Below are positions 44,714-53,711 of a DNA stretch of 64,000 nucleotides, piece by piece. Within the stretch, counting starts at the first letter, position 1; each line of letters begins with the position of its first letter. Location of the stretch: the NCBI RefSeq assembly GCF_001886495.1, contig NZ_CP018022.1, forward strand, positions 620,001-684,000, given 5' to 3'. The notes beneath the pieces were generated by a model. That model did no database searches and was not told the DNA's origin. It worked only from the letters and a program-made list of their open reading frames with translations. The translations under genes and the position numbers were made by a program. Source of the DNA: Spiroplasma sp. NBRC 100390 (lineage in GTDB: Bacteria; Bacillota_I; Bacilli_A; Mycoplasmatales; Mycoplasmataceae).

Positions 44714-45781
44714 CTATCGATAAAATTCATTTTGATATGTTTTAACAAACTCTCAATCTGTAACTGCATCTCAGTTAACTGATCAAGTCATCATTCCTTT
44801 TAAATAAATGTTTTGTTCTTTTAATAAGTCAGTTGCTTTTTTAATATCCTGAGCTTTAATTTGACCATTTGCTGCTGCATCATTGTTTGCTGGTAATCCT
44901 CATAATAATTGGTTGGCTGGAATTTGAAAAAAATTATCTTTTCCTTGCACAATATATTTTGCAATTAAATATAAGAATTCTGCTTTATATTTGGTATCAT
45001 TTTGTGTCAACCATCAACCATTAAAACCTAATGCTTCTTGTTCTTCAATTGGAACATTAACTCCATCCCCAGCTTGATTATAAAATTGTGGAGCAATAAA
45101 ATCAAGGTGTATACTTAAACCTCGCAAATATGGTAAATATTTTCCTTGACCTGCACTTGTTCGTAAATATGGAAATTCTGGTGCCATTGTAATTAAAAAT
45201 TCTTTGTTATAGAACTCTGCATAATAATTTTTAAGAAGCACTAAAACTCTAGGAATAATATCCTCATTTTCTCCAGCACTAATTGCTGATTGTTCTAAAT
45301 CAATATCAATTCCATCAAACCCAAACATACTTACTAACTTTCTAATTTCTTGAGTAAAAGCTAGTTCGTCATCAGATTTTAAAGAAATATGTGCATCAGC
45401 ACCACCTAATGATAAAATAACTTTTTGTCCACGCTCTTGTACTAATTGAACTTGATTAGCAAAATAATCATTTTTTTCATCTTGCGTAAAGTGCGGTTTA
45501 TGTGGTACTTCTGGAATAAAAGTTGGAATTTCACCAGTTTTATATGATTTCATAAATGAAACATTAATAAAATCATATTCCTGATTAACATCAACTAAAT
45601 CAATATATTTGGCGGTCCCGCCTTGATATCCAGCACCATTATCTCAGTTATGTCAGTAACCAACTAAAATTGGTTTGTGTTCTTGCGAATTATGATAAGT
45701 AGTAAAATTACTATTTGCTAATGATAACGGAGCACTTGTAACTAACGTCAATGTACTCATTAATGATATTAAACCATTCAT
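44714..45781 (-). CDS. Secreted GH18 chitinase
   Basis: A 355-residue glycoside hydrolase family 18 enzyme that cleaves beta-1,4-GlcNAc polymers such as chitin. It has a signal peptide (residues 1-25, NGLISLMSTLTLVTSAPLSLA) without a lipobox, so it is probably secreted. The catalytic DxxDxDxE motif is intact as DGIDIDLE at about residues 156-163, with E163 the acid. LSLGGADAH is the SxGG motif, and FIAPQFYNQAG and MTWSVNWD are the later strands. The start at 45779-45781 is preferred over an upstream ATG because AAAGGA is then 10 bases away. Monocistronic, with its own terminator. It points to an arthropod-associated life. Confidence 0.93.
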
Positions 45782-45927
45782 AATGATCATATCCTTTCAT
45801 TGTATAGTATTTTCAGTGGCTTTCCCTACCTTAATTTTACTAAGGAAAAATAAAAAAGTAAATAATAAAATCTTTTTAAAATAAGAAAGATTATAATTAT
45901 TTACTTACAATAGAAAGTTTTGTTGTT

Positions 45928-47675: not shown

Positions 47676-48056
47676 TTAAATTTGATCTAAAACTGAATTA
47701 ATATAACTAAAATCAGTATCTTCACTATAAAGTTTTAGAATTTCTAAACTTTCATTAATAACAATTGCCTTTGCTAATCCTTGATAATGAATTGCATAAA
47801 CACCATACACTAAAACAGCTTTATGATAATTACTTAATCGTTCAAAACTTCATCCTGATTTTAAATGTTGATTAATAAGCCCAATAATTGTTGTTAAATT
47901 ACCTAAAATATCATCAATTTGTTCTGATTCAATGCTAGTTGTTACAACTTGTGAAAAATCATAAGCCTCTTGTTTTGTTGTTAAAACATCATGTTGCAAA
48001 ATAAAATGACGATATAACAAATTAATAATATTAATCCGTTCTTGGCGTTTTGACAT
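47676..48056 (-). CDS. nusB: Transcription antitermination protein NusB
   Basis: A 126-residue all-helical protein with the NusB pattern. It begins with the MSKRQERINIINLLYRHFI helix and ends with ERLSNYHKAVLVYGVYAIHY, AIVINESLEILKLYSEDTDFSYINSVLDQI (consensus VxInExVxLaKxYsxxxSxxFINGvLxxI). It is part of the complex that prevents premature termination in rRNA operons. The length is slightly short, with the middle region reduced. The start ATG at 48054-48056 has AAGGAG eight bases upstream. It lies 15 bases downstream of the NERD-like gene, likely the same transcript. Confidence 0.85.
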
Positions 48057-48071
48057 GTGACATACTCCTTT

Positions 48072-48737
48072 TTAAATATAGTGATATAAACAAAATAAAC
48101 TTCGTTTTTGTAACCGAGAATTATGACGATGACTATGAACTCCAAATAAATGATGTAACATTAAAATTGTTTCATCAGCTAAGAGATCATTTGTTAAATC
48201 ATCGTTCTTTTCAATATGTTTTATTATATCACTTCAATGATATTCTTGTTGATTAATTATTTGAATATTATTATAATTTTTAGCATCTGTTATTGTAAAT
48301 GGTTCTTTACTATTAATGACAACCAAATTAATGGTTGCTGTTCGTAAGAATTGTTTCGCATTAATCATTTTCATCATTCGATTAATCATGAATTGTTGTG
48401 TTACAACGGGAGAAGTAATTAAAGTATTATTTTGTTCTCACACTGGGGCTGCCATTGTTGTACTAACTGACCCATTTAATGTTTGTATTTTTAGAAAATA
48501 AAGATTCTTACGAGTTAAAATTAACCGGGGAAAATAATATGTTATTTTGCTAACATCATCATAAAAAGCAACATTTTTAAAATATCACATATAATTAACC
48601 GTTTTAACATATCGTTCAATAATTTTATCAAAATAACGATATTGCTCTAATTTTAATTCTTGTTTTCAATTTAACGCTGGTAATCCTAATTCCTGACGAA
48701 TTTTTGTTAAATAATGTTGATTCTTATGAGTTAACAT
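48072..48737 (-). CDS. NERD-like (nuclease-related domain) protein
   Basis: A 221-residue protein. The middle region has the NERD outline: a hydrophobic strand set (YFPRLILTRKNLYFLKIQTLNG) where NERD proteins place I-D-x-x-G-x-x-x-I-E-x-K, then W-E-Q-N-N and SPVVTQQFMINRMMKMI (family W-x-x-x-x-x-x-x-NP-x-x-Q-x-x-x-N), and a closing strand INLVVINSKEPFTI. The catalytic E-x-K is replaced here by K-I-Q, so activity is doubtful. The N-terminus is a basic helix. It lies directly upstream of nusB and downstream of a terminator, 15 bases before nusB. DNA binding or a degenerate nuclease role is a guess. Confidence 0.5.
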
Positions 48738-48766: not shown

Positions 48767-48789
48767 AAAAAAGAAACCTACGGTTTCTT
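48767..48789 (-). terminator. Terminator after the 150-aa unknown gene
   Basis: An 8-bp stem AAGAAACC/GGTTTCTT with a 3-nt loop and a T-run on the minus strand. The stop codon of the gene lies in the loop side. Confidence 0.8.
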
Positions 48790-49230
48790 ACGATGTCAAA
48801 AGTGACTAGTTCGTTTTTGATGTTGATAACGATATTGTATTTCATCTTCAGCAATTAGCTGTTCAATTAAAACATCGTTGTCTTTCCGTGTTAATGCTTC
48901 TTGATAATCAAATGTTTTTTCATGAACACGAACATGAATGCCATTAAGTAATAATGGTGCTTTAATTTCTGCTAACTTTAAAAACCTAATTTCTTTTGGA
49001 TATAAATACAATAATTTCCCATGTAACTTAACATTTCGTAATAAAATAAAGTCATTTTTACTCGGGGAGTTTGCGACATTATCTTCGGTATAAACATTAT
49101 AACTAAGATAATGATTATAATCTTGTTCATTGCCAGCAAAAAACATTTGATTTTTATGCATTCGATCAATACAAATAATTTTCCCATTATGTAAAAAATA
49201 TAAATGTCCGGTTTTAATATCTCTTATCAT
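48778..49230 (-). CDS. Hypothetical protein, 150 aa
   Basis: A 150-residue protein with no recognised family. It opens with a beta-rich segment (MIRDIKTGHLYFLHNGKIICID) that looks like a small barrel. It contains a KNDFILLRNVKLHGKLLYLYPKEIRFLKLAEI stretch and ends in a charged helix (YQEALTRKDNDVLIEQLIAED) with a basic RYQHQKRTSHFWHRKKP tail. The tail crosses one TGA read as Trp. It has a strong AGGAGG site and its own terminator. It lies 75 bases downstream of the coiled-coil gene at 49306, separated by a short spacer in which no promoter is evident. It may be part of the same unit as the three coiled-coil proteins. Confidence 0.75.
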
Positions 49231-49305: not shown

Positions 49306-50943
49306 TTATTTGTTGTTCCGTGCTTCTTGCATCAATTGTGCTTGCACTCGTAATGATTCAATTAAAGCTTGGCGATTTTCTTTCACTTCGTCACGAATTC
49401 GTAATAATCGTTGAAATTCTTTTTGGCGTTTAATAAACTCTTCAATATTTCCTTTTGTGTTTTTATATTTAAGAACTTGTTTATCTAACAACTTAATTTC
49501 AGCATATTGCTTCTGGTTTAATAACATAACATGTTTTCGTAACAGCGCAATTGATTTATTACGATTTTCTAAAATTGCCGCATTTAATTTATCATCATTT
49601 GTTTTAATTGTTCGTGATAAATTGATTGCCCGGTTAAAATCAGCTAATTCTTGTGAAATTTGGCGATTATAACCTTGTTCATATTGTTGTCGAACTTCTA
49701 ATAAATACTGCAACATTTTTTGTTCATAGACTAAACGTTGATCAATATTAGGTCGTTTCTTCTCATCATACTGATGATTATAATTTGTTTTTTTATAACG
49801 ATCTTCACTCAGTAATTCTGCTTGTTCATTAGCAAAGTCCATTGTTGAGGTTTCTCCTTTTTTGTTCTTTGCTTTTAGTGCAGGACTTTCTTTTTTATTC
49901 TTTTTTTGCTTTGTTTTAAAAGCAAATGTTTCTTTTAAATGTTCTAATTGTGTTTGTTCTTCCGCATTTAATTTATAAAAACGTGCCTTATTTTCTAACC
50001 GTAAAATTAATCGTTCTTCCATTGATAATGGATCTTCAGCAGTACGAATTATTTTAACTGGTTTTGGTTTTGGTGGTACAATATCTCTTGCCGCAAATTC
50101 ATTTAAGTTAATTTCAACTTGATTTTGTTTAATTAAGCGAACAAGGATTTCTTCGTCCCCTTTTTCAATTTCAATTTTATCATCAGAATCAACAACAAAG
50201 TCAACAACTGATAACCCATTTTGTTTTATTTGTGAAATCTGGTGGGCTAAAATTGGGCGTAAATCACGACGAATTGTTGTTACTTCTTCTGTTTCAGTTC
50301 GCCGAATAATTGTTTTCATTTCGTTTGTTTCTGGTTCTGATGACCCTAATTTTGTTTTTACACGATCAACATCTAAACTATTTCAATTCGAGAAAGTATT
50401 AAATTGATCATTAATTAATTCACTGTCTTTTAACGGTGGTTTAATTAAATTAGTTGTTTTCGGAATGGCATTTTTAGCAGACCTTTTTGTTCTACTAACA
50501 GTTTTATTAGTTTTTGGTTGATCTAATGGTGTTGAAATTAGGATATCTTGCTGAAGTGGCTGCTTCACTTTTGCTGCTGGTTTTTTACTAGCTGCTTGTT
50601 TTGCTTTATGATTGTTTAATCTTGCAAAAACTGGAATTTCTTTGTCACTACGATAACTATAATCAATGAATTTACTTTTATTTTTTTGTTCTTCTCAAGC
50701 ATTATCTTTATCTTTTAAACGAATAACTCCCTTTTTTTTGGTTCCAACAACTTCAGTTAAATATTTTTGTTTTAATGCTTGATACTCTGGGCTATTTTCA
50801 TCTAATTGTCTTAATAAAACTTTAATTGTTGCTGGAGTTAATTTTTTATCCATTAGTTCTGCTGCATCTCGTTCTGAATCAACAATGCTACCATAATTAG
50901 CACGAGTAACGACAACAGTTTCTGAGTCTTTTTCTTTTGCCAT
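49306..50943 (-). CDS. Long charged coiled-coil protein (545 aa)
   Basis: The 545-residue frame is continuous with TGA as Trp. The N-terminal block has NYGSIVDSERDAAELMDKK and LTPATIKVLLRQLDENSPEY. A Lys/Pro-rich segment with TNKTVSRTKRSAKNAIPKT follows, then a beta-like region (VVDFVVDSDDKIEIEKGDEEI). A long C-terminal helical rod ends the chain (EQTQLEHLKETF, LVYEQKMLQYLLEVRQQYEQG, LLDKQVLKYKNTKGNIEEF, LRIRDEVKENRQALIESL). It holds one DEKKRPN motif near residue 397, also found in the two following genes. No known domain or signal peptide. The low-hydrophobic, high-charge make-up suggests a filament or scaffold in the cytoplasm. Spiroplasma has internal cytoskeletal ribbons, but a link is only a guess. 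Confidence 0.8.
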
Positions 50944-51097
50944 TTTTTAATCCTCTTATTTGCTTTCTCATTTTTAATACATATATATATTATATAAAAT
51001 TTTTAAACTTTTTTAAATAGTTTTAGCAAAAAACCTTGCTTTTTTTAATAAATTATTTATAATATTATTTCATTATTTTAATTAAACTCTATCACCT

Positions 51098-51685
51098 TTA
51101 TTTGAGACCTTTTTTATAAATTAACCGCTGTCATTTTGTTATTTTCGGAACAACCCCTTGCTTAATTGGTTTTTCAATTTGCACCGGATGATATATCTCA
51201 TATTCATTAGCTAACGCTTGTCCAATTTCGCGCATTAAAATTGTGCCATAATTATCTTCTTCATAGGAAGGTGTCATTTTGTTATCTTTTGCAAAAAATG
51301 ATTTTGGAAGTGAATCTTTTGCTTCAATCTCACTATTAAGTATTTTTTTATTTATCTTTGGTAGTTTAACTGGCTTTGCTAATGTTGCTAAATATTCTTC
51401 TCGTTTTTTTAGTTCGACTAGTCGTGATTGTTGCAAATCACGCAAAATTAATTCTTGTTGACGATGCAACTGTTGCGCTTGAACTTTTTGATTAATTTTT
51501 AACACTTGTAACAATTGTTGTTGCATTTTAGCATCAGTTTCTTGTGCTCAGAGCTCTTTTTCTTGCGCTCATTGAAGAACAACATCTGGTCGTTTTTGCG
51601 GATCAATCCCACTTGACGTAACAACTTCATCAAAATATTTTCGAATTAAATCTGCTGTTGGTAATGTTGTTTGTTTTGCTCCCAT
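51098..51685 (-). CDS. Charged coiled-coil protein with KRPD motif (195 aa)
   Basis: A 195-residue protein starting MGAKQTTLPTADLIRKYFDE. Near residue 28 lies the motif IDPQKRPDVVLQWAQEKELW, matching the DPKKRPN motif of its neighbours. From about residue 55 it is a long helical coiled coil (QQQLLQVLKINQKVQAQQLH, LRDLQQSRLVELKKREEYL). The C-terminal 60 residues have a KLPKINKKILNSEIEAKDS stretch and a small folded end with NYGTILMREIGQALANEYE. The NYGTI element echoes NYGSI in the 545-aa protein. There is no signal peptide or known domain. It is separated by 13 bases from the 670-aa gene upstream (stop 51699) and 154 bases from the 545-aa gene downstream. Confidence 0.8.
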
Positions 51686-51698
51686 TATTATTCCCTCA

Positions 51699-53711
51699 CT
51701 ATTTTTTTTGATGCTCCTCGCCAGTTTTATCTTCTACTGAGTCAACTAAAAAACCATTAACAACTTTTTTTCCTTCTGCAAGATATTTATTAATTAAAAT
51801 CTGTGGTAATGGTTTTGGTTTAATTTTTCGATGACGCAGTTTTTTTTGATAGCGTACTTCTTTACGAATATTCTTTTGAATTAATTTTTCTTTTACTAAT
51901 CGTTCATGAAGTTGTTCTAATTGTTGTCGTTCAATTTCACGAATTTCGCGAGGATGATAACCAGCAAAAGTATATTGGTTTCCTGCTAAATTTATTGTTA
52001 AATCAGGTGTTTTTGTTGGATCAAGATAGTTAATCTGATAATCTTTTAACTCTTTTTGAGTATATAATGTTAAATCAATTAATCGTGCTTTCTCATTAGC
52101 ATCTTTTTTTATTTTCATATTATCTAATGAAAGTTGTTCTTTCGTCATTGTTATGACATCTAGTTTTTTCATTCTTTTTTCTTCGTAATTATTACCAAAT
52201 TTTAGTTTTTTTAAATTAGGTCGTTTTTTAGGATCAACTGTTGAAATATATTTTTCTTGCGGTGACATTGCAGGAAGAACTGTTGTCTTATTTGGTGTAC
52301 TTTCTTTTGCTGCACCATTTAATTGTGTTAAGTTATTACTACTTGGCGCTGAAAATGAGGTATTTGCTGGATTTGACATTACGTTAGTAGTTACAAATTT
52401 TGATAAAACTGTTGGTTTTGGTTTCTGAATTGCTTTAACAAACAATGGTCTAATTTGATTAGTAATTGCTGTGTCTAAATAAAGATCTGTTTTAAAAATT
52501 GGTTTTCGTTGTGGCTCATCAGTGATGAAATTTCGAATATATTTACCCCCAATTTGTTTTTTTGTTTTTCCTAAACTACGAGATAAACTTTCTTGCACCA
52601 TTTGATTACGTTTTTTAATAACATTTTCTGGATCAATCACAACTTTTTCTTCATTATCATCCTTCGACAAAGTAATTTCTTTCATATATTGTTTTCATTC
52701 TGACGGATGTGAATCACGACGAGACAATAATTCTAATTGGTTTTTACTTAAATTCATTTGTTCTTTAATTTCATCAAGAGAGCGTGGTTTAACATCACTA
52801 TTTACACGAGAGTAGTCTTCTTCAGGATGATACACACCTCGGGCTCGATTTAAGTAAGGATGTTCATCATGATTCGTCGCATCACGTCGTGCTAATAATT
52901 CAATTTGATTTTGATTTAAACCTCAACTCTTTGCATGTTCTTTAACTTGGTTATTAAAAGTTTTTAATATTTCACCAGTATATTCATCATGATGTTCAGA
53001 AATGTTTTTTTCTCGTTCACTATGATAGCGACCATATTGTTCATTCCGTTGCCGAATTAAACGTTGTTGATTTGGATTTAATTTTCTAATTAAATCTTCA
53101 ACTTCTTTTGGTGTTGATTTTCCGGTTATATTTTCAACCGCCAAATTATCATCTTCTGTTTCAAAAGTAAGGTTGACTGTTGAAATTAATCCTACTTCTT
53201 TTTCTTTTTGATCAACTGCCAATGCATTAATATTATTATTTAAAAAACTTTCTCGTGGTTCTTTTAATTCTGATTCAATTGCTTCTTGTGATTCTTGGTA
53301 TCCTCTTACCACTCGGGCTGGAAATAAATCTTCTGAACGATATAGTTTTCGTTTTGCTAAAAGATCTAATTGTCCGGGATTTAATCCCATATTACTTTTT
53401 TTACTCGCTGTTGTTTTTATTTTTTCTATTGGTCTTGATGCTTTTTTAGTTGTTGTTTTTTTAAAGTTAACATTTTCTCCCAGAACTGCTTTGATAAATT
53501 TTTCGTATTCTTTTTCATAACGATTATCTCAATCAACCGTACTAGTTGCATTTAATGTTTCATATTCTGTCATTAACTTTAAATACGGTTCTGATTTTTT
53601 TCAAGCTTTTGTTAAAGCTTTAATAACAGTTGTTTCATTAACCTTCATTTTTAAACTGTTGTTAACTTCTTGTAGTTGTTTTGTTTCATTTAGTTTCTTC
53701 TTAGCCATCAT
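51699..53711 (-). CDS. Repeat-containing charged coiled-coil protein (670 aa)
   Basis: A 670-residue protein. The N-terminal 100 residues are a basic helical domain (MMAKKKLNETKQLQEVNNSL). Four copies of a helix-turn repeat L-[NS]-x-x-Q-x-x-L-[LI]-x-x-R follow, near residues 109 (GLNPGQLDLLAKRK), 210 (LNPNQQRLIRQRN), 264 (GLNQNQIELLARRD, then EHPYLNRARGVYHP) and 320 (LSKNQLELLSRRD). Then come a low-complexity S/T/N linker, a DPKKRPN motif near residue 490, and a C-terminal helical rod (QQLEQLHERLVKEKLIQKN). No family is recognised. The gene is the first of the three-gene group, with a normal start and no signal peptide. ATG at 53709-53711 or 53706-53708 is possible. Confidence 0.8.

Follow-up and report, generated by a model that had tools for sequence, protein, structure and literature searches.

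Dissimilar charged proteins of Spiroplasma share a short motif that may serve as a docking peptide

We analyzed a window of 64,000 nucleotides from Spiroplasma sp. NBRC 100390 (contig NZ_CP018022.1; G000:C1:620001-684000, G000 being the 1.2 Mb source genome, translated with code 4), in which three adjacent genes encode charged proteins, here P1, P2, and P3, that share an eight-residue consensus, D-x-x-K-R-P-[N/D]-(L/I/V). A fourth protein, P4, encoded 180 kb away and dissimilar to the other three, carries the same motif. We consider it somewhat better than an even chance (probability roughly 0.6) that this is a short linear docking motif through which dissimilar charged proteins would engage one shared site on a conserved Spiroplasma protein, giving a membrane-linked scaffold. 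A docking peptide is suggested because the motif is short and specific, operates at the protein level, and occurs in dissimilar proteins at varied and sometimes terminal positions. Docking peptides are a known kind of element; in the open-access literature (accessions and the motif string were not queried, and most subscription journals lie outside its coverage) we found no paper on P1-P4 or the motif.

Results

The initial annotation of this DNA had described three genes with one shared motif each. Their coordinates and motifs were confirmed, with the genes on the minus strand, and the count of one copy per gene was right for P2 and P3 but not for P1, which has a second, degenerate copy (DPTKTPDL) that in distant orthologues reads YYDESKRPNL or YFNLEKRPDL. 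As an exact DNA pattern, DPxKRP[ND] gave two matches in the whole genome (P1 and P2), and the broader DxxKRP[ND]-phi, with phi searched as a codon with T in the middle, gave five, namely P1, P2, P3, P4, and one antisense to dnaK; the reversed control gave none for either pattern. The antisense dnaK match (DNWKRPNV) was set aside as ordinary sequence, as was NLLKRPNI in MnmG. A matrix trained without this genome scored the four window sites at 22.7-26.5 bits and the remainder of the window at no more than 13.3.

Profiles of the whole proteins were then compared by 8-mers, with no region preselected and with significance taken from column shuffles. The motif was the top match in all six pairs among P1-P4, and its score was reached by 0 of 300 shuffles in five pairs and by 5 of 300 for P2-P3; in 15 control pairs that included P5 (described below) or two neighbor proteins, the top score was equaled by 22 or more of the 300 shuffles. 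A coincidence in lysine-rich, low-complexity proteins is therefore extremely improbable: the proteins are indeed 30-35% charged, and MnmG does hold a similar string, but the shuffle, genome-wide, and cross-species tests all argue against it. The annotation had also called for a motif search over the genome and its relatives, and this search found the motif to be conserved between species and not common in unrelated proteins, since it is specific, is kept between species, and is found in otherwise dissimilar proteins.

The similar DNA spelling (ggtcgttt) to which the annotation drew attention is present but merely encodes K-R-P, and the codons used there differ among orthologues (CGT, CGC, CGG, AGA). 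Because orthologues spell the motif with different synonymous codons, selection acts on the protein, and an element at the DNA level was ruled out. An NYG[ST]I element, also noted earlier, is present in P2 (residues 145-149) and P3 (residues 16-20) but is too short to weigh. The statement that P1-P3 lack known domains and membrane segments proved correct: none of P1-P4 matched a Pfam or NCBIfam family over the cut-off or any PHROGs phage protein family, P1 and P3 had no PDB sequence relative at E<0.1, and P1-P3 contain no membrane-like segment, the top 19-residue hydropathy being 0.7.

In P4, the motif (DITKRPNL) belongs to a charged N-terminal part, and the C-terminal part has, as judged by eye, about four hydrophobic segments; conserved features of P4 include the N-terminus MKSNDIKILKIKPIKQ and an NSHFF stretch. 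Its gene is immediately upstream of mnmA (gene name assigned by eye). Of the 14 genus genomes, 13 gave a P4 relative, as against none of the 36 other genomes searched; the gene is broken in G001, G002, G003, and G013, and it was not found in G011 on search. All nine aligned intact copies retain DxxKxPN (W replaces R in one), and the motif is still kept in two more distant groups in which identity to the G000 copy is 23-32%.

The helical rods that had been placed beside the motif agree with predictions for P2 and P3, in which AlphaFold models of low to moderate confidence, built from shallow alignments (4 input sequences for P2 and 3 for P3), show long adjacent helices. In the P2 model, with a mean confidence score (pLDDT) of 69, the motif occupies a loop between a short helix (residues 10-24) and a predicted 70-residue helix (33-102). 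The P3 model has a mean pLDDT of 50, with three long helices at residues 400-544, mostly at pLDDT 64-86, and at this low confidence its motif is located in, or at the edge of, sequence with pLDDT<50. A Foldseek search of the PDB with the P3 model returned generic helical bundles, the best at E 0.39.

Across the genus, the motif pattern was present in all 14 genomes. There were 53 matches (reversed control, 0), 44 of which lie by coordinates within P1-P4 genes or their remnants; the other nine comprise five spelled like the antisense dnaK match (which was read in G000 alone), two in P5, one in an ATPase, and one that was not read (G004:983530). Searches recovered a relative of each of P1, P2, and P3 from 13 of the 14 genus genomes, whereas none of the 65, 26, and 26 other genomes searched, respectively, yielded one. 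The sole exception in the genus is G008, in which P1-P3 were not detected by search and AlaS is 84% identical; insertion-sequence-like genes fill those stretches of it that were read. G008 retains P4 with its motif.

Among orthologous open reading frames that hold the respective region, P1 copy 1 is exact in 10 of 11 (the eleventh has DPKKCPNL), P2 has DxxKRP in 11 of 12, and P3 has DxxK[RK]PN in 12 of 12, with R replaced by K in two genomes. Ranked by conservation, the window of positions holding P1 copy 1 is the most conserved in that protein (1 of 663), and that of P4 ranks 9 of 589. The ratio of nonsynonymous to synonymous substitution (dN/dS, G000 versus G005) is ∼0.33 for P1, ∼0.31 for P2, ∼0.23 for P3, and ∼0.27 for P4, as compared to 0.07 for alaS; the intact P1-P4 genes are under purifying selection.

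Outside the genus, 46 other genomes of the family gave six pattern matches (reversed control, 3), three of which, all from genus g12, were DxxKRPN within long reading frames. A pair of related g12 proteins terminate in DLSKRPNL or DLSKRPNI, and a G036 protein has DISKRPNL in its N-terminal tail. The position of the motif thus varies: P1-P4 carry it internally, the G036 protein in its N-tail, and the g12 pair, like one conjugation ATPase, at the extreme C-terminus. Descent of P1-P4 from one ancestor, with the motif as the last recognizable piece, retained for folding, is improbable when set against such different positions, extreme termini included, and against a top match between families that is no longer than the 8-mer, even though P3 and P1 copy 2 have a slightly longer common pattern, [ND]Y....[YF][DN]xxKRP[ND].

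The g12 proteins with the terminal motif belong to a four-gene cluster, A-B-C-D, located between efp-asp23 and tig-lon (names by eye), and in G082, of genus g11, the cluster has the same location, with DYAKRPSM in A and a B that terminates near DINKIPSF. In 8-mer tests of P1-P4 against A and B, the motif was the top match in 7 of 8 pairs, six of them at no more than 3 of 200 shuffles; for P1-A, 19 of 200 shuffles reached the score, and for P2-A the top match lies elsewhere. We gave little weight to 17-mer results because a control pair, the g48778 neighbor versus C, likewise scored 0 of 200. Full-length homology of P1-P3 with A-D was rejected, hhalign giving it a probability of no more than 3.4%, although several of the top local alignments fall on the motif. 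On these resemblances the A-D cluster is likely the counterpart of P1-P3; because hhalign gave no significant full-length homology, this is unproven and orthology is a lead only. A G082 gene between dnaJ and mnmA encodes DIAKSPNF and NANSHFFK, the latter matching GENSHFFN of P4 (0 of 200 shuffles), and it is probably the P4 orthologue in view of that match, its position, and its motif.

The location of this cluster also bears on a rival reading, in which a protease, chaperone, or adaptor, and not a scaffold, recognizes the motif as a signal for sorting or degradation. The cluster adjoins tig and lon, and the motif is terminal in some proteins, but its internal placement is conserved in four proteins and neither tig nor lon neighbors P1-P3 at the loci inspected within the genus; we regard such a signal as distinctly improbable and know of no degron of the D-x-x-K-R-P-[N/D]-phi form.

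Two further proteins carry the motif, or variants of it, at their ends in some genomes. P5 occurs in every genus genome except G008 (13 of 14) and also in genera g7, g8, g11, and g12, and its C-terminal tail reads DFSKRPNL or DFAKRPNF in G009/G007 and a related KRP[STN]L in most other genus members; it was not counted as a full member, the tail motif being lost in G000, G002, and G005. In G013, a conjugation ATPase, plasmid relatives of which are annotated as Mbov_0397 family or VirB4, ends in ...MNYDPSKRPNLTNK, that is, with DPSKRPNL at its extreme end. This is a single case: none of the other ATPase C-termini compared had the motif, and that of G005 has a degenerate DKDKQPTSL.

Discussion

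From these sequence patterns we infer that all carriers of the motif would dock on a common protein partner and would so form a cytoplasmic scaffold linked to the membrane. The motifs would most likely all occupy one site, on a single conserved Spiroplasma protein. P1, with its two motifs and four LNxxQxxLLxxR-type repeats, would be a multivalent scaffold; P2 and P3 would be helical rods, for which a motif loop ahead of long helices would fit attachment by one end; P4 would be the membrane anchor; and the four proteins would thereby be brought together at a single cellular site. It is conceivable, if doubtful, that D-x-x-K-x-P-[N/D/S]-phi is recognized by one conserved hub, perhaps at the internal cytoskeleton or the cell pole, which so recruits fast-evolving scaffolds together with a membrane anchor and, in a single genome, a conjugation ATPase.

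The annotation had proposed that P1-P3 bind one another or a common partner, perhaps a filament. The case for a shared docking motif is strong, and a common third partner appears more likely than mutual binding because P4 keeps its motif in G008, where P1-P3 were not detected, and P1-P3 genes keep theirs without P4: motif-bearing genes of the P1-P3 cluster persist in G001, G003, and G013, where P4 is broken, and in G011, where it was not found. The alternative, that the motif ties P1, P2, and P3 together by docking on a domain within the group, such as the three-helix part of P3, is unlikely on the same evidence, although the adjacency and kept order of the three genes in most genus genomes would suit it and P3 offers a plausible helical receptor in its predicted structure.

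Several observations weigh against a conserved docking function. Conservation of the P3 motif is unremarkable (its window ranks 117 of 538), and the P2 motif ranks 24 of 188. The genes themselves have decayed in several genomes, P1 being interrupted in G002 and G003, P2 interrupted in G001 and truncated in G003, and P3 interrupted in G013 and split in G004; the P1-P4 module is therefore dispensable in some hosts. The argument from G008 holds only if enough time has passed for P4 there to shed a motif no longer in use, and homology across genera is supported by three genomes and by short matches.

Short linear motif hubs are established in bacteria, as with the SSB C-terminal tail, the beta-clamp binding motif, and the FtsZ C-terminal peptide. 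Like these, the present motif is a short conserved peptide that recurs in unrelated proteins, perhaps in flexible stretches, and would have a single reader; unlike them, D-x-x-K-R-P-[N/D]-phi to our knowledge matches none of the three. In general character P1-P4 also resemble the charged coiled-coil proteins of the attachment organelle in Mycoplasma pneumoniae, which are likewise lineage-specific and scaffold-like in a wall-less bacterium. Beyond fibril and the MreBs, we know of little that has been established about what organizes the spiroplasma interior. The motif would be a direct handle on accessory proteins, offering a route to the partner and a list of further members, and if the partner is cytoskeletal or polar it would open an unexplored side of the classic problem of shape and motility.

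P1-P4 resemble the ribbon and dumbbell components, fibril and MreB1-5 (PMC5289999, PMC13310574), in that they are restricted to Spiroplasma, charged or helical, and possibly cytoskeletal; they differ in having no MreB or fibril-like domain over the cut-off in Pfam and NCBIfam, a search that involves no direct comparison with the fibril sequence. Nor do P1-P3 track MreB genes, as G008, where they were not found, has MreBs (six PF06723 matches, one of DnaK length, and five MreB-like genes). Genome G004, which we take to be S. eriocheiris, encodes a P1 of 540 aa, a P2 of 209 aa, and a P4 of ∼560-568 aa, its P3 being split. Sixteen proteins, from stained bands only, have been listed for the Triton-insoluble internal structure of S. 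eriocheiris (PMC5289999, Table 1), and in that part of the source none fits P1-P4 by length and annotation, given the G004 lengths and our assignment of that genome. Because the list derives from stained bands, minor proteins would escape it. A link of P1-P4 to fibril or MreB is thus not supported by this proteome, as far as the available part of the source goes.

Locus and neighboring genes

The gene order is alaS, ruvX, P1, P2, P3, two uncharacterized genes, and nusB, and the adjacency and order of P1-P3 are the same in most genus genomes; by coordinates, 13 bases separate P1 from P2 and 154 separate P2 from P3. The repeats of P1 start at residues 110, 211, 265, and 321 (span 110-332) and are also present in orthologues, and they are possibly a second, repeated docking element. 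Coordinates are collected in Table 1.

Table 1. Positions of the motif proteins, their motifs and repeats, and related features (window positions unless a genome or locus is given)
Feature	Position	Strand	Length or residues	Remarks
P1	51699..53711	-	670 aa	charged, soluble; two motif copies and four LNxxQxxLLxxR-type repeats
P1 motif copy 1	52212..52235	-	493-500	DPKKRPNL, context VDPKKRPNL
P1 motif copy 2	51999..52022	-	564-571	degenerate DPTKTPDL, context YLDPTKTPDL
P1 repeat 1	53349..53384	-		LNPGQLDLLAKR
P1 repeat 2	53046..53081	-		LNPNQQRLIRQR
P1 repeat 3	52884..52919	-		LNQNQIELLARR
P1 repeat 4	52716..52751	-		LSKNQLELLSRR
P2	51098..51685	-	195 aa	motif in loop between two helices
P2 motif	51581..51604	-	28-35	DPQKRPDV, context IDPQKRPDV
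P3	49306..50943	-	545 aa	model low-confidence or disordered for the most part, then three long helices
P3 motif	49744..49767	-	393-400	DEKKRPNI, context YDEKKRPNI; immediately precedes three-helix part
Example motif-bearing peptide				YISTVDPKKRPNLKKL
Conserved neighbor protein	48778..49230	-	150 aa	same gene block; without motif or family
Conserved neighbor protein	48072..48737	-	221 aa	without motif or family; beside P3 across the genus
nusB	47676-48056			after the 221-aa gene
P4	G000:C1:487533-489320 (L128:610-2400)		596 aa	
P5	L206:6391-7134, L188-L205		∼247 aa	
G013 conjugation ATPase	L182:493-3321			
G036 protein	L272:6067-7080		337 aa	
A-B-C-D cluster, g11/g12	L270:4007-8803; L271:3851-8675; L273:1389-6602			charged uncharacterized proteins

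By eye, the core of the G036 protein resembles a tail-less G008 protein (L268:12641-13372). Elsewhere in the window, a glycosyl hydrolase family 18 (chitinase-like) gene is located at 44714-45790.

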